Shown here: piece after piece, positions 1 to 10,494 of the stretch
Position numbering within the stretch: the stretch's first letter is position 1
How the letters are laid out: each line of letters starts with the position of its first letter
Source of the DNA: an uncultured Collinsella sp.
Lineage (GTDB): Bacteria > Actinomycetota > Coriobacteriia > Coriobacteriales > Coriobacteriaceae
Length of the DNA: 10,494 nucleotides
Direction of reading: 5' to 3'
Assembly: GCA_900757265.1 (NCBI GenBank)
Contig: CAAENW010000171.1
Coordinates: 1-10,494, forward strand
Translations under genes and position numbers: made by a program
The notes under the pieces: generated by a model
Seen by the model: only the letters and a program-made list of their open reading frames with translations
Told to the model about the DNA's origin: nothing
The model's database searches: none

Positions 1-2165
1 GGCTCAAACGCTTGATCCTGAGCGATGCGGTTGGCAAGCGACGTGGACATTAAGATCTTGTAGGCGCTGTAATGTTGCAGCTGCGTAATTGCATCGCCCA
101 CGGTGCGGGCGTATCCCGGGGCGTCGGGCGCATCGGCACTCATGCGAACGACGCCATTGAGTCCCTCAAAACGAATCACTTCGTCCGATTGCTCAAGAAT
201 GGGAGCAAGGCGCTGCAGCATGCCGGGCGTCATCGCCAAATCGCGAATCACGTGTCCCTCAAGTTCGACATAGCCACCCGCGAGGCAGACGATGCCGGTC
301 CAGGGCAGCTCGAGCAGCTTTGGATGGATGCAGCTCAGCGTGCGCCCTGTGCAGATAAACGCCATATTGCCCTTGGCGACAAAATCACGGATGGCTTGCG
401 AGACCGCTTCATTGGGATAGGGGGAGAGGTCTCGCTCGCTCTCGGGAAGCTCTTGTGCCACTCGAGGGTCTTGCCAGGCGAGTGTTCCGTCGATATCGAA
501 GAAGCAGATATCGCCGCGCTTATGGGCTGCGCTGGCGGCAGGGGAGGCCGAGGTGGTGGGCACAAATCCCGGCTCGAGGCCCATGATCTGGTCAAAATGC
601 TCTTTAACGCGGGGAACGGAGATGCCAATAATCACCTGGGCGGTCTTGCCCGTAATGATGAGGCCCTTGGCGCCCGCCGCGACGAAGGCTGCGTTGTCTG
701 CGACAACGGAAGGTTCTGCGACCTCAACGCGCAGACGCGTGGCGCAATTGGTCGCTCCTACAATATTGCTAACGCCACCCAAGAGCGCAACGACTTGCTC
801 AGCAAGCAGATGATCTTGGGATGATTGGTTGTCGGTGCCGTTTTGGGCCGCGCCTTCTTTGGCAGAGCTTTTTCCCGTCAGACGTGCGAGCGCCGCATCG
901 CTGGCGATATGATCCTCGCGGCCTGGGGTTTTTAGGTCGAAAGCCAGAATGAGGCCCCGGAAGACCAGAAAAAAGACAGCGCTAAACATCAGACCGATAC
1001 CGAGCGCCAAAAGGTAGGAGCCGGCATGCATTCGCATGAGTGGGATGAAGTTGAAGGCCGTCATTTCCATGAGACCGCCCGAGAAGATGCCGACGATGCC
1101 AAAGAAGTTCATGGTCATGGCAAGGCAGGAGGACAGGACGGCGTAGAGCAAAAAGAGTCCGGGATAGGTGAACATAAAGAGAAACTCTAGCGGCTCGGTG
1201 ACGCCGCAGACCACCGAGGCGACGATGGCGGGCAAAAGGATGACCTTAAGGCCGGCGCGGCGTTCGGGTTTGGCGGTGAAATAGAATGCTGCCGCGATGG
1301 CGGGAAGGCCAAAGAGCTTGCCCCAGCCGGTGGCGGTAAAACCTGCCCAGGGCGCAAGTTCATTTAAAGGGCGCGTGCTATGGGAGAGAATGGGGAGCAG
1401 GTTGGTCCACGTGGCGTAAATACCGTCGTGAATGACCAGATTGTCGTAATAGATGGGCATATAGAGCAGATGGTGCAGCCCCATGGGCTCGAGCGCTCGC
1501 TCCAAAAACACAAAGATGCCCACGCCGAAGGGGCCGACGCCCGCAAGTGCGTGGCGCAGCGTTTCGGTCACAGCGTATGCGAAAGGCACGATGGCGGCCG
1601 AGATGGCGGCAAGGGCAAACACGGCAAAAAAGCTGATGAGGTAGACCAGCGAGGAACCCGAGAAGGTGCCGAGCCAATCGGGAACCTTGGCATCGTAGAA
1701 GCGGTCATGGATGGCAACGACGGTTGCCGACACCGCCAGCGGGCCGATAATGCCGGTGTCGAGCGTCTTGATGCCGTCGATGACGGTGATGCCGCTGGCG
1801 GGGGTTAAAGACGACGGGTACTTAAGCCCAAGGTTGTCTCCGCTCAGCTTAATGATCTCGCTCAAAAAGAAACAGTAGGCAAAATAGGCTACGAGCGCCT
1901 CGAGGCAGCAGCGTGCCGGTTGCTTTTGGGCAAGGCCGATAGGCAGCGCTACGGCAAAAAGGAGTGGAAGGCGCTTAAAGACCGTCCACGAGCCGCGCTG
2001 GATGATAGTCCAGAAAACGTACCAGGGGGTTCCGTATACGGCGAGGTCGCCGACGATATCCACGGTCGTTGCGAGGGCGGAGATGCCGACCATGAGGCCT
2101 GATATAGAAAACAGCATGGCGGGCGCGAACATGGCTCCGCCAAAACGTTGGATTTTCTGCAGCAT
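1..2165 (-). CDS. Alpha-glucoside-type PTS permease EIIC-EIIB fused to a Cof-type HAD phosphatase (3' end outside window)
   Basis: The reverse strand reads open for 721 codons from the ATG at 2165-2163 to the window edge. The start follows GAAAGG (2172-2177) with a 6-base gap. The N-terminus (MLQKIQRFGGAMF) and order EIIC-EIIB match GlvC/MalP, which import and phosphorylate alpha-glucosides such as maltose. EIIC spans about residues 1-415 with the family motif GVTEPLEF at 321-328 and ends at KTPGRED. EIIB spans about 453-535 with the phosphorylated Cys474 in TNCATRLR. An Ala/Ser/Pro-rich linker (about 533-550) leads to a HAD domain: motif I DIDGT with Asp557 and Asp559, motif II CTGRT with Thr606, then a C2-type cap from about 633. 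HAD motifs III and IV would lie off the window. No EIIA domain is seen, so a separate Glc-type EIIA is presumably used. Fusion to a phosphatase is unusual; dephosphorylating the imported sugar phosphate is an inference. The exact sugar is unknown. Confidence 0.9.
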   Translation of the reverse strand, partial: MLQKIQRFGGAMFAPAMLFSISGLMVGISALATTVDIVGDLAVYGTPWYVFWTIIQRGSWTVFKRLPLLFAVALPIGLAQKQPARCCLEALVAYFAYCFFLSEIIKLSGDNLGLKYPSSLTPASGITVIDGIKTLDTGIIGPLAVSATVVAIHDRFYDAKVPDWLGTFSGSSLVYLISFFAVFALAAISAAIVPFAYAVTETLRHALAGVGPFGVGIFVFLERALEPMGLHHLLYMPIYYDNLVIHDGIYATWTNLLPILSHSTRPLNELAPWAGFTATGWGKLFGLPAIAAAFYFTAKPERRAGLKVILLPAIVASVVCGVTEPLEFLFMFTYPGLFLLYAVLSSCLAMTMNFFGIVGIFSGGLMEMTAFNFIPLMRMHAGSYLLALGIGLMFSAVFFLVFRGLILAFDLKTPGREDHIASDAALARLTGKSSAKEGAAQNGTDNQSSQDHLLAEQVVALLGGVSNIVGATNCATRLRVEVAEPSVVADNAAFVAAGAKGLIITGKTAQVIIGISVPRVKEHFDQIMGLEPGFVPTTSASPAASAAHKRGDICFFDIDGTLAWQDPRVAQELPESERDLSPYPNEAVSQAIRDFVAKGNMAFICTGRTLSCIHPKLLELPWTGIVCLAGGYVELEGHVIRDLAMTPGMLQRLAPILEQSDEVIRFEGLNGVVRMSADAPDAPGYARTVGDAITQLQHYSAYKILMSTSLANRIAQDQAFE

Positions 2166-2205
2166 AATATGCCTTTCGGATGCAACATGCTGTGCGAGCA
2201 AGAAC

Positions 2206-2213
2206 GTTTAAAC
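2206..2213. promoter_or_regulatory. Candidate HutC/TreR-type operator upstream of the PTS gene
   Basis: GTTTAAAC is an 8-base perfect palindrome that fits the known HutC-subfamily GntR pattern GT-N-TA-N-AC. The 10 bases GTTTAAACAA recur exactly at 2328-2337. On the minus strand a good -10 hexamer, TACAAT (2228-2223), lies just upstream, which would put this site at or just after the transcription start of the PTS gene, a classic repressor position. The -10 also lies in a second palindrome, ACAATGA-AC-TCATTGT (2212-2227). No convincing -35 was found. Binding by the neighbouring regulator is inferred. Confidence 0.5.
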
Positions 2214-2327
2214 AATGAACTCATTGTAGAGGACTGGCTGCTTGCCGCATTGACGGTTTTGATTCGGTCCGATTTGGGTTTCGGGGGAACCGTCGACGGT
2301 AAATAATCCGTGCTTTACCGATAATCG

Positions 2328-2335
2328 GTTTAAAC
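2328..2335. promoter_or_regulatory. Candidate autoregulatory operator upstream of the GntR regulator
   Basis: This is the second copy of GTTTAAAC, identical over ten bases (GTTTAAACAA) to the site at 2206-2215 and 55 bases before the regulator's start codon. It fits the HutC pattern GT-N-TA-N-AC. A weak -10-like TATCGT (2351-2356) would place it over the -35 region, consistent with self-repression. The promoter itself is not clear. Confidence 0.5.
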
Positions 2336-2389
2336 AACTTTAAGAAATGCTATCGTGCCTAGCCATACATATTCATTAGAGGTGAAATC

Positions 2390-3109
2390 ATGCCAAAAGC
2401 GATTTACGAAGGAATCTACCGCGAGATCCGTTCGCGCATCATCAACGGGACCTATGCGTTTCAGGAGATGCTGCCAACCGAAGCCGAGCTGACCGCGGAG
2501 TTTGGCTGCACGCGCAATACCGTTCGACGCGCCTTGAGCATGCTGGCCGACCAGATGTTTGTGCAGCCTATACACGGTAAGGGCGTGCGCGTTATTTGGC
2601 TTAAGGGCGAAACCGACATGCTGGGCGCACTCGAAGAGGTTGAGTCGTTTGGCGAGTTCGCAAAACGCAACAATGCCGTCGCATCGACCGAGGTCAAGTC
2701 TTTTGAACATTTGATTTGCACTGAGCAACTCTCACGTCGCCTGGGCTTTAAGGTGGGCGAGGAGCTGATTCGCGTAGTGCGTGTCCGAAGCCTCAACGGC
2801 AGCGCGCGCCAAGTGGACCATGGCTACTTTTTGGCGTCGATCGCCAAGGGCCTGACCCCCGAGATCGCGGCGGATTCTATCTACGGCTATCTGGAGCACA
2901 AGCGCGGCGTCAAAGTGATGGCGAGCCGTCGTACGGTGAGTGTCGAGCTCGCCAACGATGAGGACTGCAGCTATCTGGACCTCGGCAAGTACAACTGCGT
3001 CGCCGTTATGGAGAGCCAGTCGTACACCTCGGACGGCATCTTGTTCGAGGTCACGCATGCCCGCACACACCCCGAGATCTTCCATTACCGCGTCAATTCC
3101 AAGCGATAG
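2390..3109 (+). CDS. treR: GntR-family (HutC subfamily) transcriptional regulator, TreR-like
   Basis: This is a 239-residue DNA-binding repressor, the usual length for TreR. Residues 3-70 form the GntR winged helix, with the helix-turn-helix around LPTEAELTAEFGCTRNTVRRAL cut at about 29-49 and the wing GKG at 63-65. The rest, from about 90, is a UTRA effector-binding domain. Its stretch YFLASIAKGLTPEIAADSIY and the following region resemble Bacillus TreR (as I recall that sequence), whose effector is trehalose 6-phosphate. The start has a strong ribosome site, GAGGTG (2379-2384), six bases upstream. It is divergent from the PTS gene and upstream of the ABC operon, so it is the obvious candidate to sense the phosphosugar made by the PTS. 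Family assignment is firm. The effector could be trehalose-6-P, maltose-6-P or another glucoside phosphate; the symbol is by similarity only. Confidence 0.88.
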   Translation: MPKAIYEGIYREIRSRIINGTYAFQEMLPTEAELTAEFGCTRNTVRRALSMLADQMFVQPIHGKGVRVIWLKGETDMLGALEEVESFGEFAKRNNAVASTEVKSFEHLICTEQLSRRLGFKVGEELIRVVRVRSLNGSARQVDHGYFLASIAKGLTPEIAADSIYGYLEHKRGVKVMASRRTVSVELANDEDCSYLDLGKYNCVAVMESQSYTSDGILFEVTHARTHPEIFHYRVNSKR

Positions 3110-3205: not shown

Positions 3206-3222
3206 TTCGATAACAAATAATT

Positions 3223-3230
3223 GTTTATAC
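3223..3230. promoter_or_regulatory. Candidate HutC/TreR-type operator upstream of the ABC operon
   Basis: GTTTATAC fits GT-N-TA-N-AC and sits inside the inverted repeat TTGT-TTAT-ACAA (3221-3232), very close to operators of TreR-type repressors. It lies between the regulator's terminator and the binding-protein gene, 186 bases before its start. A near match, GTTCAAAC (3298-3305), in the repeat TTGTT-CA-AACAA (3296-3307), lies closer to the gene. This supports control of the transporter by the adjacent regulator, but promoter elements are not clear. Confidence 0.45.
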
Positions 3231-3233
3231 AAA

Positions 3234-3333
3234 ACTTGTCAAGTATCAAGTCGAAATTACCGTTCACCGAAGTTTTTCTACCGCTCTAGTAATACTTGTT
3301 CAAACAACTAGCCAAATAGCGTATTGTACAAGT
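3234..3333. promoter_or_regulatory. Palindrome-rich presumed promoter region of the ABC operon
   Basis: In this AT-rich stretch the word ACTTGT appears at 3234 and 3294, and inverted (ACAAGT) at 3328. The first forms ACTTG-T-CAAGT (3234-3244), and the last overlaps the 8-base palindrome TTGTACAA (3324-3331). TTGTTC (3296-3301) and TATTGT (3322-3327) could be -35 and -10 but are 20 bases apart, which is too far for a normal promoter. The region probably holds the promoter and one or more repressor sites. Nothing suggests a gene between 3110 and 3415. Confidence 0.4.
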
Positions 3334-3392: not shown

Positions 3393-3415
3393 ACGGTGTG
3401 AAAGGGTGGATTGTA

Positions 3416-4732
3416 ATGAAGAACGAAATGAGCAGAAGGCAGTTCCTGGGCTTTGCTGGTTCCGCGGCTGCGGTTCTTGGTCTGGGCCTCGTGGGCTGCG
3501 GTGGTTCTGCCGGCTCTGGCTCCTCTGCTTCTGGTGACGCTGCCGAGGTCTACTTCCTCCAGTTCAAGCCCGAGGTCGACAAGGAGTGGAAGGAGATCGC
3601 CAAGGCGTACAAGAAGGAGAAGGGCGTCGAGGTCAAGATCGTGACCGCCGCCTCCAACACCTACGAGGAGAAGCTCAAGTCCGAGATGTCCAAGAGCTCC
3701 GCTCCGACGCTGTTCCAGGTCAACGGCCCCACCGGCCTTAAGAACTGGAAGGACTACTGCGCCGATCTTTCTGACACCAAGCTCCGCGGCGAGCTCATCG
3801 ACGACTCCCTGGCGCTGCAGTCCGACGGCAAGGATCTGGGTATCGACTGGGTTCAGGAGAGCTACGGCATCATTTACAACAAGGAGCTCCTCGAGAAGGC
3901 CGGCTACAAGGCCGAGGACATCAACTCCTTCGACAAGCTGAAGGCTTGCGCCGATGACATCCAGGCCCGCAAGGACGAGCTCGGCGTTGACGGTGCCTTC
4001 ACTTCCGCCGGTATGGATGACTCCTCCAGCTGGCGCTACACCACCCACCTCGCCAACCTCCCGCTCTACTACGAGTTCGAGAAGGAGCACAACCAGGAGG
4101 ACGACGAGATCAAGGGCGAGTATCTCGACAACTTTAAGCAGATCTTCGACCTGTACATCACCGACTCCACCTGCGATCCTTCGCAGCTCGCCTCTAAGAC
4201 CGGCGACGACGCCACCAACGAGTTCGCAACCGGTAAGGCCGTCTTCTATCAGAACGGCTCTTGGGCCTATGCCGACCTCACCAAGGCCGGTATGACCGAT
4301 GACCAGCTCGGCATGCTGCCGATCTACATCGGCGTCGACGGCGAGGAGAACCAGGGCCTGTGCTCCGGCGGCGAGAACTACTGGTGCGTCAGCTCCCAGG
4401 CTTCCGAGGATGCCCAGAAGGCCACCGAGGACTTCATGTATTGGTGCGTCACTTCTGACACCGCCACCAGCATCATCGCTGACAAGATGGGTCTGACCGC
4501 CCCGTTCAAGAGCGCTAAGGAGACCACCAACGTCTTCTCGCAGCAGGCCGTTGCTATGGCCAAGGACGGCAAGAAGACCGTTGCTTGGGACTTCGTTTAC
4601 ATCCCCTCCGAGGAGTGGAAGAAGAACCTCAAGCAGGCTCTCATCGCTTATGCTGCCGACAACACCAAGTGGGACGGCGTCAAGAACGCCTTCGTCGATG
4701 GCTGGAAGACCGAGAAGGCTGCTTCCGAGTAA
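3416..4732 (+). CDS. Sugar ABC transporter substrate-binding lipoprotein (CUT1 family, MalE-like)
   Basis: This 438-residue protein captures a sugar outside the membrane and delivers it to the permease pair encoded next. The N-terminus has a twin-arginine motif (SRRQFLG, Arg7-Arg8), a hydrophobic stretch and a lipobox LVGC with Cys28, then a Gly/Ser-rich tether. This indicates a Tat-exported, lipid-anchored binding protein, the expected form in a Gram-positive cell. The mature part has the CUT1 binding-protein layout (for example YNKELLEKAGYKAEDI, residues around 162-177). I chose ATG 3416 because AAAGGG (3401-3406) is well placed for it. A GTG at 3398 would add six residues but lacks a good ribosome site. 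The ligand is not evident; an alpha-glucoside or malto-oligosaccharide is a guess from the neighbours. Confidence 0.9.
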   Translation: MKNEMSRRQFLGFAGSAAAVLGLGLVGCGGSAGSGSSASGDAAEVYFLQFKPEVDKEWKEIAKAYKKEKGVEVKIVTAASNTYEEKLKSEMSKSSAPTLFQVNGPTGLKNWKDYCADLSDTKLRGELIDDSLALQSDGKDLGIDWVQESYGIIYNKELLEKAGYKAEDINSFDKLKACADDIQARKDELGVDGAFTSAGMDDSSSWRYTTHLANLPLYYEFEKEHNQEDDEIKGEYLDNFKQIFDLYITDSTCDPSQLASKTGDDATNEFATGKAVFYQNGSWAYADLTKAGMTDDQLGMLPIYIGVDGEENQGLCSGGENYWCVSSQASEDAQKATEDFMYWCVTSDTATSIIADKMGLTAPFKSAKETTNVFSQQAVAMAKDGKKTVAWDFVYIPSEEWKKNLKQALIAYAADNTKWDGVKNAFVDGWKTEKAASE

Positions 4733-4819: not shown

Positions 4820-5674
4820 ATGGGCAAAGCACTCAAACGCTGGTGGCCGCTCTTTATGCTGCCCACGTGCCTGGCGTTTATGATCGGGTTCGTGATTCCC
4901 TTTATCCAGGGTTTCTATCTCTCGTTCTGCCAGTTTATTACCATCAATAACGCGCACTTTGTCGGTATCGAGAACTACGTGCGCGCGCTGTCCGATCCGC
5001 AGTTCTCCACGTCGTTCTTCTTTACCGTGGCGTTTGCCTTCCTGTCGACGGTGCTCATCAACGTGATCGCGCTGGCCATTGCGCAGGCGCTCACTCGCAA
5101 GGCGCTCAAGGGCACCAACATCTTCCGTACGATTTTCTTTATGCCTAACCTGATTGGCGGCATTGTACTGGGTTACATTTGGCAGATTCTGATCAACTGC
5201 CTGCTCTCCAACGTGGGCGCCCAGCTCATCGCCCTTAACTCTGCTGCTGGCTTCTGGGGCCTTATCATCCTGACCCTGTGGCAGCAGGTCGGCTACATGA
5301 TGATCATCTACATCGCCGGTCTGCAGTCCATCCCGTCTGACTACATCGAGGCCGCCAAGGTCGATGGCGCTACGGCATGGCAGACGTTTTGGAAGGTTAA
5401 GATCCCCAACCTGATGCCGACCATCACCATCTGCCTGTTCCTGTCCATCACCAACGGCTTTAAGCTGTTCGACCAGAACCTCGCCCTTACCGGTGGCGCC
5501 CCGGCGCACTCCACCGAGATGCTCGCCCTGAACATCTACAACACGTTCTATTCGCGTGCTGGCATCGCATGGCAGGGCATCGGTCAGGCCAAGGCAGTTA
5601 TCTTCTGCATCCTGGTTGTCGCTATTTCTATGATCCAGCTTAAGGCCACGAGGTCCAAGGAGGTGCAGCAGTAA
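4820..5674 (+). CDS. Sugar ABC transporter permease, MalF/UgpA type
   Basis: This 284-residue inner-membrane protein forms half of the sugar channel. It starts with a short basic cytoplasmic end (MGKALKRWW) and a membrane helix at about 10-32, with about five more hydrophobic segments at roughly 65-90, 105-128, 145-168, 200-215 and 258-275. The EAA loop that docks on the ATPase is clear: EAAKVDG at 177-183 followed by IPNLMP at 195-200. GAAAGGA (4806-4812) is its ribosome site. It lacks the long extra N-terminal helices of enterobacterial MalF, as is usual for CUT1 permeases of Gram-positives. Its TAA stop shares its last base with the next ATG, implying translational coupling and equal production of the two permeases. 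Confidence 0.92.
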   Translation: MGKALKRWWPLFMLPTCLAFMIGFVIPFIQGFYLSFCQFITINNAHFVGIENYVRALSDPQFSTSFFFTVAFAFLSTVLINVIALAIAQALTRKALKGTNIFRTIFFMPNLIGGIVLGYIWQILINCLLSNVGAQLIALNSAAGFWGLIILTLWQQVGYMMIIYIAGLQSIPSDYIEAAKVDGATAWQTFWKVKIPNLMPTITICLFLSITNGFKLFDQNLALTGGAPAHSTEMLALNIYNTFYSRAGIAWQGIGQAKAVIFCILVVAISMIQLKATRSKEVQQ

Positions 5675-6513
5675 TGAAACGCGATAAGGCTATCAACCGC
5701 GCGCTCTCGATCTTCTTTACGATTCTGTCGCTCGCATGGATCTACCCCGTGTTCATGATTGCGCTCAATTCCTTTAAGAAAGCGACCGCAATCAGCACCA
5801 CCACGGCGTTCGATCTGCTCACGCCCGAGACGTTCAACGGCCTCGCAAACTACGTGCACGCTCTGAACGAGCAGGGCTTTGCCTCGGCGTTTATGTACTC
5901 GCTCATCATCACGGTCACGTCGGTCGTGCTGATTCTGGTGTGCTGCTCCATGTGCGCTTGGTACGTGGTGCGCGTCAACAGCAAGATCTCGAACTTCTTC
6001 TATTACCTGTTCGTCTTCTCGATGGTCGTACCGTTCCAGATGCTCATGTTCACGCTGTCCAACCTCGCGGACCGCATCGGCTTTAACACGCCGTTTAACA
6101 TCTGCTTCATCTACCTTGGTTTTGGCGCGGGCCTCGCGGTCTTTATGTTCGCCGGCTTCGTCAAGAACATCCCGCTCGAGATTGAGGAAGCGGCCATGAT
6201 CGACGGCTGCAACCCGGTCCAGGTGTTCTTTAAGATCGTCCTTCCCATTATGAAGCCCACCTATCTTTCGGTCGGCATCCTTGAGACCATGTGGGTCTGG
6301 AACGACTATCTGCTGCCCTACCTTACGCTCGACTCCACCAAGTACAAGACCATTCCTATCTTGATCCAGTACTTCCGTGGCGGCTATGGCCACGTCGAGC
6401 TCGGCCCCATGATGGCATGCATCATGATGGTCGTCATCCCCATCGTCATCATGTACATCTTCTGCCAGAAGTACATCATTGACGGCGTTGTGGCAGGTGC
6501 CGTCAAGGGCTGA
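5674..6513 (+). CDS. Sugar ABC transporter permease, MalG/UgpE type
   Basis: This 279-residue partner permease completes the channel. Its basic start (MKRDKAINR) precedes a membrane helix at about 10-32, and further hydrophobic segments lie at about 72-98, 106-128, 143-162, 195-215 and 245-268. The EAA loop reads EEAAMIDG (171-178), then LPIMKP (190-195), as in MalG-type proteins. The start overlaps the previous stop (TAATG) and has a very strong ribosome site, AAGGAGGTG, inside the end of the first permease gene. The 68 bases after its stop hold a small hairpin before the ATPase gene. Confidence 0.92.
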   Translation: MKRDKAINRALSIFFTILSLAWIYPVFMIALNSFKKATAISTTTAFDLLTPETFNGLANYVHALNEQGFASAFMYSLIITVTSVVLILVCCSMCAWYVVRVNSKISNFFYYLFVFSMVVPFQMLMFTLSNLADRIGFNTPFNICFIYLGFGAGLAVFMFAGFVKNIPLEIEEAAMIDGCNPVQVFFKIVLPIMKPTYLSVGILETMWVWNDYLLPYLTLDSTKYKTIPILIQYFRGGYGHVELGPMMACIMMVVIPIVIMYIFCQKYIIDGVVAGAVKG

Positions 6514-6581: not shown

Positions 6582-7781
6582 ATGGCCGAGATCGTTCTCA
6601 AACATGTTCAGAAGGTGTATCCCAACAACGAGTCAAAAAAGAAGGGCTTCTTTGGCAAAAAGAAGAAAACCGAGGAGAAGAAGCACAACCTCAAGGTTAC
6701 CGAGGACGGTGTGCTCGCTGTAGAGGACTTCAACCTCACCGTTCACGACCAGGAGTTCATCGTCCTCGTTGGCCCTTCTGGCTGCGGTAAGTCCACGACG
6801 ATGCGCATGGTCGCCGGCCTGGAGGATATCACCTCGGGCGACGTGCTCATCGACGGCAAGCGCGTCAACGACGTCGCTCCCAAGGACCGCGACATCGCCA
6901 TGGTGTTCCAGAGCTATGCTCTGTACCCCAATATGACGGTGTACGAGAACATGGCGTTTACGCTCGAGCTCAAGAAGGTCCCCAAGGACGAGATCGACCG
7001 CAAGGTTCGCTCCGCTGCCGAGATCCTGGGTATTACCGAGTACCTTGACCGTAAGCCCAAGGCACTCTCCGGCGGCCAGCGTCAGCGTGTCGCCATCGGC
7101 CGCGCCATCGTACGGGACCCCAAGGTCTTTCTGATGGACGAGCCCCTGTCCAACCTGGATGCTAAGCTTCGTAACCAGATGCGCGCCGAGCTCATTAAGC
7201 TGCGTCATGAGATCAAGGGCACGTTCATTTATGTTACTCACGACCAGACCGAGGCTATGACCCTCGGTGGCCGTATCGTGGTCATGAAGGATGGCGTCGT
7301 CCAGCAGATCGCCACCCCGCAGGAGGTCTTCAACCATCCCGCGAACATCTTCGTCGCCGGCTTTATCGGCGTGCCGCAGATGAACTTCTTCGATGCCCAG
7401 CTGGTGCGCTCGGGCAACGGCTTTACCGTCAAGACCGAGGATATGAACGTGGCGCTCGCCCCCGAGACCTGCGCTCAGCTTGCTCTCAACTGGGACGGCG
7501 GCGACGTGAAGGAGATCACGGCCGGCGTGCGTCCCGAGCAGATTCTGCTTGCCGACAAGGACGAGGAGGGCGCGCTCCAGGGCACCGTCGAGGTGACCGA
7601 GCTCATGGGCTCGACCGAGCATGTCCACGTGACCGCTCCCGACGGCCAGTTTGTCCTGATTATCCCCGTCGTCGACCTCGAGGCCAAGGGCGCGCTCAAG
7701 GCTGGCGACCCCATCTGGTTCAAGTTCGAGAAGAACGCGACTCATCTCTTCGATAAGGTGTCTGGCAAGAACCTTATCTAG
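6582..7781 (+). CDS. Sugar ABC transporter ATPase, MsmX/UgpC/MalK type
   Basis: This 399-residue cytoplasmic protein hydrolyses ATP to drive the permease pair. All motifs are intact: Walker A GPSGCGKST (64-72, Lys70), Q-loop Gln110, signature LSGGQ (162-166), Walker B VFLMDEP (182-188, Glu187) and switch His220. The C-terminal part is the TOBE/OB regulatory domain with GVRPEQ at 315-320. Such ATPases often serve several sugar importers in Gram-positives. The odd feature is an extra lysine-rich segment at about residues 17-44 (NESKKKGFFGKKKKTEEKK core), placed between KVYPN and VLAVEDF where classic MsmX/MalK proteins have only a short link. It is in frame, without disturbing the flanking strands. 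It is the last gene of the operon. Confidence 0.95.
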   Translation: MAEIVLKHVQKVYPNNESKKKGFFGKKKKTEEKKHNLKVTEDGVLAVEDFNLTVHDQEFIVLVGPSGCGKSTTMRMVAGLEDITSGDVLIDGKRVNDVAPKDRDIAMVFQSYALYPNMTVYENMAFTLELKKVPKDEIDRKVRSAAEILGITEYLDRKPKALSGGQRQRVAIGRAIVRDPKVFLMDEPLSNLDAKLRNQMRAELIKLRHEIKGTFIYVTHDQTEAMTLGGRIVVMKDGVVQQIATPQEVFNHPANIFVAGFIGVPQMNFFDAQLVRSGNGFTVKTEDMNVALAPETCAQLALNWDGGDVKEITAGVRPEQILLADKDEEGALQGTVEVTELMGSTEHVHVTAPDGQFVLIIPVVDLEAKGALKAGDPIWFKFEKNATHLFDKVSGKNLI

Positions 7782-8236: not shown

Positions 8237-10494
8237 TTAGCTCAGGTGCCAGATCTCGTCGTTGTACTGGGAGATCGTACGGTCGGACGAGAAGGTGCCG
8301 GCGTTGGCGATATTGATGAGCGCCTTGCGCATCCAGGCGTCCTGGTCCTCGTAGTCGGCCAGCACGCGCTCCTTGGTCTGGATGTACTCCTCAATGTCGA
8401 GCAGGGCCATAAACCAGTCCTTGCCCTTAATGTCGTCGTGCAGGCGCTGCAGGCGCTCGGCGTTGCCGGTTGCCATAAAGGCCGGGTTGGTGATGAAGTC
8501 CACCAGCAGTTTAATGCCGGGCTTGCGGTAGAGCGCACCGGCGTTGTAGGTGCCTTCGGCATAGAGCTGCTCGACCTGTTTGGACGAGGCACCAAAGGTA
8601 TAGATGTTCTCGTCGCCCACGAGCTCGGCAATCTCCACGTTGGCACCGTCGAGCGTGCACAGGGTTAGGGCGCCGTTGAGCATGAACTTCATGTTGGAGG
8701 TGCCGCTCGCCTCCTTGGAGGCCAGGCTGATCTGCTCGGAGATGTCAGCGGCGGGGATCACGCGCTCGGCGGCGGTGACGTTGTAGTTCTCGATCATGAC
8801 AACCTGCAGGTAGGGGGCCACATCGGGGTCGTTTGCAATCCACTGCGACAGCGTCAGGATCAGGTGGATGATGTCCTGAGCGATGGTGTAGGCAGGCGCT
8901 GCCTTGCCGCCAAAGATGATGGTGACGGGATGCTCGGGCTTATTGCCGTTCTTGATGTCGAGGTACTTCCAGATGATGTAGAGCGCGAGCATCTGCTGGC
9001 GCTTGTACTCGTGGATACGCTTGACCTGGACGTCGATGATGGCGTTGGAGGGGATCGTCACGCCCTGTTCGAGCGCCATAAACTCGCGCATGATGGTTTT
9101 GGCCTCGACCTTGGTGGCGGCCAGGCGCTCAAGAACATCCTTGTCGTCGGCGAATTCGGCAAGCTTGCTCAGGTCGCCGGTGCTGCGCCAATCGGTGCCG
9201 ATTACATCGTCGAGCAGGCTGGCAAGCGCGGGGTTGGCACCATGGATCCAACGGCGGAAGGTGATGCCGTTGGTCTTGTTGGAGAACTTCTCGGGATAGA
9301 TTTCGTAGAACGGGTGAAGCTCGGTGTCCTCTAGGATTTTGGTGTGGAGTGCGGCGACGCCGTTGATGGAGAAGCCAAAGTGAATGTCCATGTGGGCCAT
9401 GTGGACGGTGTCGTACTCGTCGATGATGGCGACGCGCGGGTCGTCGTGCTCGGCCTTGGCAACCTCGTCGAGCTTGACGATGATGTCGGCGATGGCGGGG
9501 GAGACCTTCTGCAGGCTGGCGAGCGGCCACTTCTCGAGCGCCTCGGCAAGGATCGTGTGGTTGGTGTAGGCGACCATGGAGCGCACGATGGCAACGGCCT
9601 CGTCAAACTCAATGTCGTGCTCGGTGGTGAGCAGGCGGATGAGCTCGGGAATGACCATGGTGGGGTGCGTGTCGTTGATCTGAACCACGGCGTAGTCGGC
9701 CAGATTGTGCAGATTGCTACCGCGCTCGACGGCCTCGTCGATCAGGAGCTGGGCGGCGTTGCTCACCATGAAGTACTCCTGGTAGATGCGAAGCAGGCGA
9801 CCCTGCTCGTCGGAATCGTCGGGGTAGAGGAACAAGGTGAGGTTCTTGGCAATCTCGGTCTTGTTGAAGTCGATGGAGCTGCCGGGGACCAGACCGTCGT
9901 CGACGCTTGCCAGGTCAAACAGGCGCAGGCGGTTCTTGGTGGGCTGACCGTAGCCGGGCACATCGATGTTGACGAGCTTGGAGGTAACGGAAAAGTCGCC
10001 GAACTCGACGGTGTAGGAGCGGTCGTCATCGATCAGGATATCCTGCTCGCCGAGCCACTCGTCGGGGACGGCCTTCTGCTGGTTGTCGACAAAGCGCTGG
10101 CGGAACAGGCCGTAATGGTAGTTGAGACCCACGCCGTCGCCGGTAAGGCCCAGTGTGGCGATGGAATCCAAGAAGCACGCGGCCAGACGGCCCAGGCCGC
10201 CGTTGCCGAGCGAAGGCTCGACCTCGAACTCCTCAATCTTGTTGAGGTCGTGGCCGGCAGCAGTGAGCTGGTCTTTAACCTCGGCATAGATGCCAAGGTC
10301 GATCATGTTGTTGATCAGCAGTTTGCCAATCAAGAACTCAGCAGAGATGTAATAGAGCTTTTTCTTGCCATTGTTGAGCGGGCGGGCGGCGGAGCGCTCC
10401 TGTACGAGCTTGACCAGCAGTTTGTAAATGTGGCGGTCATCGAGTTGCTCGAGCGAAGTTCCAAAGGACTGCTCGGCAAGAGCCGCAAGATTGA
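8237..10494 (-). CDS. glgP: Glycogen/starch (alpha-glucan) phosphorylase (5' end outside window)
   Basis: The reverse strand is open for 752 codons including the TAA stop at 8239-8237 and continues past the right edge. A TTG at 10333 is internal, since conserved sequence (KKKLYYISAEFLIGKLL) runs through it. The enzyme splits terminal alpha-1,4-glucose units from glycogen or maltodextrin with phosphate, giving glucose 1-phosphate. Diagnostic stretches are EPSLGNGGLGRLAACFLDS, VQINDTHPT, NKTNGITFRRW, VKRIHEYKRQ and the cofactor site EASGTSNMK, whose Lys (codon 8689-8687) binds pyridoxal phosphate. About 10-40 N-terminal residues should be missing compared with the family. All core regions look intact. 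It converges on the ABC operon, so it is transcribed separately, but it fits an alpha-glucose theme in this region. Confidence 0.96.
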   Translation of the reverse strand, partial: NLAALAEQSFGTSLEQLDDRHIYKLLVKLVQERSAARPLNNGKKKLYYISAEFLIGKLLINNMIDLGIYAEVKDQLTAAGHDLNKIEEFEVEPSLGNGGLGRLAACFLDSIATLGLTGDGVGLNYHYGLFRQRFVDNQQKAVPDEWLGEQDILIDDDRSYTVEFGDFSVTSKLVNIDVPGYGQPTKNRLRLFDLASVDDGLVPGSSIDFNKTEIAKNLTLFLYPDDSDEQGRLLRIYQEYFMVSNAAQLLIDEAVERGSNLHNLADYAVVQINDTHPTMVIPELIRLLTTEHDIEFDEAVAIVRSMVAYTNHTILAEALEKWPLASLQKVSPAIADIIVKLDEVAKAEHDDPRVAIIDEYDTVHMAHMDIHFGFSINGVAALHTKILEDTELHPFYEIYPEKFSNKTNGITFRRWIHGANPALASLLDDVIGTDWRSTGDLSKLAEFADDKDVLERLAATKVEAKTIMREFMALEQGVTIPSNAIIDVQVKRIHEYKRQQMLALYIIWKYLDIKNGNKPEHPVTIIFGGKAAPAYTIAQDIIHLILTLSQWIANDPDVAPYLQVVMIENYNVTAAERVIPAADISEQISLASKEASGTSNMKFMLNGALTLCTLDGANVEIAELVGDENIYTFGASSKQVEQLYAEGTYNAGALYRKPGIKLLVDFITNPAFMATGNAERLQRLHDDIKGKDWFMALLDIEEYIQTKERVLADYEDQDAWMRKALINIANAGTFSSDRTISQYNDEIWHLS

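Follow-up and report, generated by a model that had tools for sequence, protein, structure and literature searches.

A permease fused to a HAD-type domain in Collinsella: a candidate bifunctional maltose permease-phosphatase of the phosphotransferase system

Why would a permease that phosphorylates its sugar during uptake carry, in the same polypeptide, a domain that may take the phosphate off again? The question is raised by a gene at the left end of a 10,494-nt stretch of Collinsella sp. DNA (contig CAAENW010000171.1), the whole of which is called the window here. An earlier note on this DNA had seen in the gene one reverse-strand frame joining the EIIC and EIIB domains of a phosphotransferase system (PTS) permease to a HAD domain. 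This holds: from an ATG at 2165 to base 3, where it exits the left edge of the window, the frame is free of stops and encodes 721 residues with three Pfam domains, each above its gathering score (PTS_EIIC, 133.7 bits; PTS_EIIB, 40 bits; and the HAD family Hydrolase_3, PF08282, 28.3 bits against a cut-off of 20.9 on this truncated protein). The positions noted earlier for Cys474 and for the motifs DIDGT (557-561) and CTGRT (605-609) are exact. The gene and its parts lie as follows.

3..2165, reverse strand: EIIC-EIIB-HAD fusion gene, residues 1-721 of 816, cut by the left edge; complete in L004:13213-15663
1131..2135, reverse strand: EIIC membrane domain (Pfam PF02378, residues 11-345)
576..800, reverse strand: EIIB domain, about residues 456-530 (Pfam core 456-488), with the phosphorylatable Cys474 at 744-746
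513..575, reverse strand: EIIB-HAD linker, about residues 531-551, fast-evolving (median dN/dS 0.49, 61 pairs)
3..512, reverse strand: N-terminal part of the predicted HAD-IIB phosphatase domain, residues 552-721 (722-816 lie outside the window)
483..497, reverse strand: HAD motif I, DIDGT, residues 557-561, with the nucleophile and acid/base Asp
339..353, reverse strand: HAD motif II, CTGRT, residues 605-609

The permease part matches the NCBIfam model TIGR02005 (alpha-glucoside PTS IIBC) over positions 1-524 of 524 with 507.9 bits, which is below the cut-off of 607.3 yet the best NCBIfam match, and we therefore call it TIGR02005-like. Both the EIIC and the EIIB domain are there, with the phosphorylatable EIIB cysteine; Cys474 is invariant in all 75 aligned EIICBs. 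One public record names the fused protein merely "PTS transporter subunit EIIC".

The rest of the protein, including the HAD motifs III and IV that the earlier note lacked, could be read in the nearest genome compared (G001; 94% DNA identity to window positions 1-2165). Here the frame runs uninterrupted to an 816-residue protein, P0001, which is identical to the window protein at 683 of 721 residues and supplies the motif III lysine (Lys743, in TKRGG) and motif IV (GDASND, 765-770), both beyond the window edge. The differences are unevenly spread: 36 of the 38 fall within residues 393-497 (window 675-989; end of EIIC, linker and start of EIIB), and this segment looks like a recombined patch because the rest of the protein is nearly identical to that of G001.

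Is the fusion real? The earlier note had named a frameshift or assembly error among the findings that would refute it and had proposed a survey of the architecture. The full-length fusion is present in 21 of 395 genomes of the order, every one of them Collinsella, and all 19 loci in named close relatives, isolates as well as metagenome-assembled genomes, are Collinsella and full-length (85-100% best-segment identity). Since the frame is uninterrupted throughout these independent assemblies, we rejected the artefact explanation and give it practically no credence. No fusion outside Collinsella was found among 84,980 species genomes in a scan that reaches close relatives only (19 loci, all Collinsella), and a sample of 396 genomes of the phylum gave full-length matches in Collinsella only; other phyla were not searched for distant fusions. 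Among plasmids, the sole match covering at least 80% is a Collinsella record. The protein listings cover 120 of 1221 and 120 of 6260 matches; in the latter, the EIICB relatives of an Atopobiaceae query, PF08282 occurs on none of the 120 listed. We found no published account of a PTS permease-phosphatase fusion or of this locus, most subscription papers lying outside our reach.

Several side observations may be added. In two database proteins, P0167 and P0168, the middle of the fusion is missing and EIIC is joined straight to the HAD end, either because of a deletion within the gene or as an artefact of assembly. NZ_OY725717.1 (L124), a 900-kb Collinsella record labelled "plasmid 6", has this locus together with housekeeping genes, tsaD and uracil-DNA glycosylase among them, and is probably a piece of chromosome. 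A further HAD fusion occurs in another genus of the family (genome G219, L111:8086-9789), where 568 residues combine a PRK09270-type nucleoside-kinase-like domain with a Cof-type HAD that is 36-40% identical to the EIICB-fused one; no other query gene matched in its 18-kb locus. Finally, genome G288 (1.1 Mb, 75% complete, placed in the same order) has two EIICB-like frames with 6 and 3 in-frame TGA codons (C17:2616-4232 and C26:12370-13965), pointing to a different genetic code or to contaminating contigs.

What accompanies the permease where it is not fused? The closest unfused EIICBs (43-52% identity) come from Collinsella, other genera of its family, and Atopobiaceae. In 20 Atopobiaceae loci the corresponding EIICB is followed directly by the same HAD as a gene of its own, which lies outside the EIICB open frame in each case and starts, as far as start codons tell, anywhere from an overlap with the EIICB stop to about 200 bp past it. 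We assigned a partner to 77 EIICB loci, window included, as the gene that follows the EIICB within 1 kb on the same strand. This partner is a GH4 enzyme in 31 loci and a HAD in 41 (21 fused in Collinsella, 20 separate in Atopobiaceae), and no locus has both. Five loci have neither: L095 and L110 have a more distant GH4 upstream, the frame of L082 is broken, and L091 and L092 lack any partner; L095 combines its GH4-type pair with a weak HAD match (28%) at a distance of some 7 kb. The closest solved relatives of the GH4 reference (L062) are 6-phospho-alpha-glucosidase 6dux (692 bits) and maltose-6'-phosphate glucosidase 1u8x (679 bits), so the sister permeases probably supply a hydrolase acting on maltose-6'-phosphate or on a closely related compound. 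The HAD branch thus probably has a phosphatase where the sister EIICBs have GH4.

A tree was built from 74 of the 77 EIICBs (the window, L082, and L106 were left out as partial or broken frames). All 40 HAD-type rows fall to one side of a branch supported at 95/99. Nested among the separate-HAD rows, the 20 fused rows cluster together (100/100) at the end of a long stem (1.44); the exact place of L108 is unsure because of its long branch beside the fused group. On the GH4 side are L079, which is GH4-type, and L092, which has maltodextrin transport genes and no HAD. The simplest reading of this topology is that the HAD was a separate neighbour first and was fused to the permease a single time.

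Does the HAD part look like an enzyme? In an alignment of 42 HAD sequences (P0001, 20 fused loci, 20 separate genes, and 1 free metagenomic protein; motifs III and IV, outside the window, were read in relatives), the catalytic residues D557, D559, K743, D766, and D770 are unchanged in all 42. Among 19 fused Collinsella genes, the median ratio of nonsynonymous to synonymous substitution rates (dN/dS) of the HAD part is 0.108 (151 of 171 pairs usable), next to 0.117 for EIIC (130 pairs) and 0.081 for EIIB (67 pairs), while the two linkers evolve faster (0.44 and 0.49; 61 pairs each). The HAD part is under purifying selection. An AlphaFold2 model of the complete HAD domain of L035 (predicted local distance difference test score 95.5) has a HAD-IIB-like overall fold: Foldseek ranks 3fzq (a HAD-like hydrolase) and 1ymq (titled HAD subclass IIB) first and second, with template modelling scores of 0.75-0.80, finds GK1056 also among HAD-like hydrolases, and lists trehalose-6-phosphate and sucrose-phosphate phosphatases lower down. 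Identity to the BT4131 structures is 21-22%. TIGR00099 scores 27.9 bits on the truncated window protein, against a cut-off of 137; two separate homologues reach 93.5 and 101.1. Taken together, the domain looks like a working enzyme, with a predicted phosphatase activity and a putative phosphosugar substrate.

One could instead regard the HAD part as a structural passenger, enzymatically dead or active on common hexose phosphates only, and acquired when adjacent genes merged without selective effect. Adjacent genes often fuse, and the long stem of the fused clade would suit such an origin. However, the catalytic tetrad is invariant in 42 of 42 sequences, selection on the domain is far tighter than on the linkers, and the separate HAD gene has been kept beside the EIICB in 20 Atopobiaceae loci, which together make a passenger very unlikely.

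If the imported sugar is freed of its phosphate, what would use it? To the right of the fusion gene lie a transporter of the ATP-binding cassette (ABC) type and a phosphorylase.

3398..4732, forward strand: ABC sugar-binding protein (SBP), closest solved relative maltose-binding protein 9xor
4820..5674, forward strand: MalF-like ABC permease, an open reading frame whose orthologous locus is annotated as sugar ABC permease
5674..6513, forward strand: MalG-like ABC permease, an open reading frame with orthologous annotation
6582..7781, forward strand: MsmX/UgpC-like ABC ATPase, an open reading frame with orthologous annotation
8237..10492, reverse strand: glycogen/maltodextrin phosphorylase (GlgP), by Pfam and orthologous annotation; malQ precedes it in relatives

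At least one of SBP, MalF, MalG, MalQ, and GlgP is found in the fetched flank of 38 of 41 HAD-type loci, compared to none of 31 GH4-type loci. The association extends to whole genomes: among 62 searched for MalF (E <=1e-60; hits 60-100% identical), it is present in 15 of 16 fused Collinsella and 20 of 20 separate-HAD genomes and in none of 13 GH4-only genomes. The fused exception, G005, offers only a short contig at the locus, yet SBP and MalF matches are there. The remaining genomes comprise two with an EIICB without partner, both with MalF, and a further 11 in which no such EIICB reaches E 1e-60, two of them with MalF. A GH4-type pair is also found in five HAD-type genomes (G005, G008, G030, G096, and G097).

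Are the permease and these genes regulated together? Divergent from the fusion gene is a repressor gene, and 12-bp palindromes that resemble operators lie in both intergenic regions.

2390..3109, forward strand: GntR/UTRA repressor, TreR-like (TIGR02404, 162.1 bits against a cut-off of 211.95), divergent from the fusion gene
2204..2215, no strand: operator-like palindrome ACGTTTAAACAA, in the divergent EIICB-HAD/GntR promoter region
2326..2337, no strand: operator-like palindrome CGGTTTAAACAA, in the same promoter region
3221..3232, no strand: operator-like palindrome TTGTTTATACAA, upstream of the ABC operon
3296..3307, no strand: operator-like palindrome TTGTTCAAACAA, upstream of the ABC operon

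The earlier description of the repressor as TreR-like stands in part: the trehalose repressor model TIGR02404 is its best NCBIfam match, and because the score is below the cut-off the protein is only TreR-like; no other sign of trehalose was found. A scan for the consensus TTGTTTAAACAA with at most two mismatches gave 83 matches in 21 Collinsella loci (394 kb), all 83 within 300 bp upstream of EIICB/GntR, SBP, or MalQ; these matches are orthologous copies and not independent. In 19 of the 20 separate-HAD loci (without L074) there are 35 palindromes, each upstream of EIICB/GntR, SBP, MalQ, or, in three cases, the HAD gene. By comparison, 27 of 29 GH4 loci (474 kb; without L079 and L106) have 7, of which 6 are upstream of EIICB or its GntR. 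Counted per locus, with all loci taken, the palindrome occurs in 21 of 21 fused and 18 of 20 separate-HAD loci (39 of 41 HAD-type loci in total) and in 9 of 29 GH4 loci. Of 383 control palindromes of like composition, none equalled its upstream count in 3 Collinsella or 5 Atopobiaceae loci. G001 has one further site upstream of malQ; with at most one mismatch the operator occurs 9 times in this genome, compared to 3 times for the reversed control, and 3 of the 9 lie in this cluster, while five of the other six, inspected by eye, are beside no evident maltose gene. A scan for promoters and terminators gave nothing exceeding chance. From the placement of the palindromes, the permease-phosphatase, the repressor, and the maltodextrin ABC genes, with malQ-glgP in some genomes, look like a single regulon tied by putative operator sites.

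The regulator suggests a different role for the HAD, also raised in the earlier note: it might chiefly keep a phosphosugar low, be it the inducer of the repressor or a toxic metabolite, and not serve catabolism. The divergent TreR-like gene beside the fusion and the operator-like sites in the shared promoter fit this, and phosphosugar-stress HAD phosphatases are known, e.g., YigL of Escherichia coli. Control of a phosphosugar signal may also coexist with a catabolic role. Signal clearing or detoxification as the main task, however, leaves unexplained why the HAD and the maltose-6'-phosphate glucosidase-like GH4 exclude each other as partners.

Other outlets for the import product bear on the same point. 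The earlier suggestion that the freed disaccharide undergoes phosphorolysis did not hold for a GH65 maltose phosphorylase: GH65 maltose/trehalose phosphorylases are absent from all 36 genomes examined, which would leave the free sugar to MalQ/GlgP or to a GH13 alpha-glucosidase. Hydrolysis by a TreC-type enzyme was likewise rejected, as none of the 36 genomes has a TreC above the cut-off (the nearest, at 678-690 bits, are in G009, G014, and G018, all non-fused genomes). GH4 is more variable. It is absent from the fused G013 and G032, and G011 has no more than a 106-residue match; cognate-like enzymes (86-87%) occur in the fused G005, G008, and G030, one at 76% in G001 and G025, and matches of 33-49% in others. 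Some fused genomes thus have no phospho-disaccharide hydrolase of the GH4, GH65, or TreC types, and others have one elsewhere. The second GH4 of G001 (L113:3750-5081; 75-76% to the maltose-6'-phosphate glucosidase-like reference) has a GntR nearby and is adjoined by a 489-residue EIIB-containing frame of another permease type (L113:5150-6619). In G013 and G032, which lack GH4, GH65, and TreC above cut-off, a purely regulatory HAD would give the import product no outlet of these types, and together with the partner exclusion this leads us to consider signal clearing as the chief function unlikely.

The route could also serve another alpha-glucoside, such as isomaltose, trehalose, or a sucrose isomer, with the freed sugar split by a GH13 alpha-glucosidase elsewhere. 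TIGR02005 spans alpha-glucosides generally, the trehalose repressor is the best NCBIfam match of the regulator, and G001 has a GH13 enzyme close to alpha-glucosidase 8yif that could act on the freed sugar. Against this, MalQ, GlgP, the maltose-binding-protein-like SBP, and the shared operator-like sites indicate maltose or maltodextrin, and GH65 and TreC above cut-off are missing from all 36 genomes; we hold a different sugar to be improbable.

On the basis of the observed architecture, motifs, conservation and selection, partner exclusivity, and shared operator-like sites, the protein is probably a bifunctional maltose (alpha-glucoside) permease-phosphatase that feeds MalQ/GlgP, a proposal in which we infer the enzymatic and regulatory steps, the substrate, and the effector. 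Maltose would enter via EIIC and be phosphorylated by EIIB to maltose-6'-phosphate, with EIIA coming from elsewhere because none is fused. The HAD-IIB domain, tethered at the membrane by the variable linker, would hydrolyse the 6'-phosphate and release free maltose. MalQ and GlgP, whose genes lie close by, could turn this into glucose and glucose-1-phosphate alongside maltodextrins imported by the ABC system. In this role the HAD would take the place of the maltose-6'-phosphate glucosidase-like GH4 gene beside sister EIICBs, having presumably begun as a separate downstream gene, as it still is in Atopobiaceae, and fused once in Collinsella. Should the GntR/UTRA repressor respond to the phosphodisaccharide, as TreR does to trehalose-6-phosphate, removal of maltose-6'-phosphate may bring induction to an end as well. 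The import-phosphorylate-dephosphorylate route of the earlier note is thus favoured by genomic context, namely GH4 as the alternative partner, the neighbouring HAD gene in Atopobiaceae, and the shared palindrome. The maltose phenotype of the fusion-bearing strain TF06-26, the organism of L036, agrees with this model: the strain is reported to be D-maltose positive and the type strain weak (PMC6463082).

A number of points weigh against the proposal. The PTS route could be superfluous if the ABC system takes up free maltose, the resemblance of the repressor to TreR would fit trehalose-6-phosphate, and promiscuity is frequent among Cof-type HADs. In 5 of the 16 fused genomes examined (G001, G005, G008, G025, and G030) the fusion is not the sole outlet, since they also have a GH4 at least 76% identical to the reference. 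In the separate-HAD genomes G089, G093, G096, G097, and G098, MalF reaches just 60-63% identity and is encoded at some other place than the HAD locus. L082, with its broken frame, and L092, on the GH4 side of the tree, adjoin maltodextrin genes without a HAD, and the repressor of the GH4-type L079 is closer to those of the HAD type. The palindrome is enriched in HAD loci and not exclusive to them, as 6 of the 7 matches in GH4 loci are upstream of EIICB or GntR, and the separate-HAD loci L074 and L108 are without it. The loci are not independent data points either, because few changes, perhaps no more than 4 switches of label along the EIICB tree, are needed to explain the partner types.

How does the system compare with those already described? 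In the published accounts, the gene for the Enterococcus faecalis EIICBA permease MalT adjoins that for MapP, a maltose-6'-phosphate phosphatase, with a GH65 maltose phosphorylase present, and in Streptococcus mutans malT adjoins SMU_2046c, a suggested maltose-6'-phosphate phosphatase, with free maltose proposed to pass to MalQ/GlgP (PMC3737437, PMC8950772). The likeness is the pairing of a maltose PTS gene with a proposed maltose-6'-phosphate phosphatase. The putative Collinsella phosphatase differs from MapP in being a HAD-IIB domain covalently fused to the permease, with no EIIA domain and no GH65 found, and in Collinsella and Atopobiaceae the tie to the PTS is by fusion and gene adjacency. 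Because it is a HAD and MapP belongs to the endonuclease/exonuclease/phosphatase superfamily, the domain is not a MapP and is MapP-like in proposed function only. The broader picture, to which we give even chances, is of a PTS permease-phosphatase that undoes its own group translocation, acting as a net importer of free maltose and clearing the inducer, and that in two families of gut bacteria replaces the phospho-glycosidase independently of MapP. If true, the task that MapP fulfils, to link PTS uptake with the pathway of non-phosphorylated maltose, would here be accomplished independently, with import and dephosphorylation in one polypeptide of a common human gut genus. This would also change the annotation of the protein, allow a prediction of starch-sugar use in Collinsella and Atopobiaceae, and provide a ready case for testing substrate channelling and the clearing of an inducer by a transporter.

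The second comparison is with the alpha-glucoside PTS of the GlvC-GlvA or MalB-MalH type, which works with a GH4 6-phospho-alpha-glucosidase. Sister Coriobacteriales loci have a homologous EIICB (44-50% identity) with an adjacent GH4, whereas here a HAD replaces GH4, the GntR type is mostly different, and the neighbourhood is another. The exclusive choice between GH4 and HAD is a candidate genomic rule for whether a PTS disaccharide is hydrolysed as its phosphate or freed first. In overall fold and catalytic motifs the domain resembles the HAD-IIB (Cof) sugar phosphatases BT4131 (1ymq), YidA, and YbiV/SupH, as well as trehalose-6-phosphate and sucrose-phosphate phosphatases; all of these are stand-alone enzymes, while the Collinsella HAD is fused. 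Lastly, EIICBA permeases also add a cytoplasmic domain to EIICB, their EIIA domain sitting C-terminally; PF00358 (EIIA) is found on 12 of the 120 EIICB relatives listed, which are 704-717 residues long. There the added domain is the phosphodonor EIIA, and here it would be a phosphatase.

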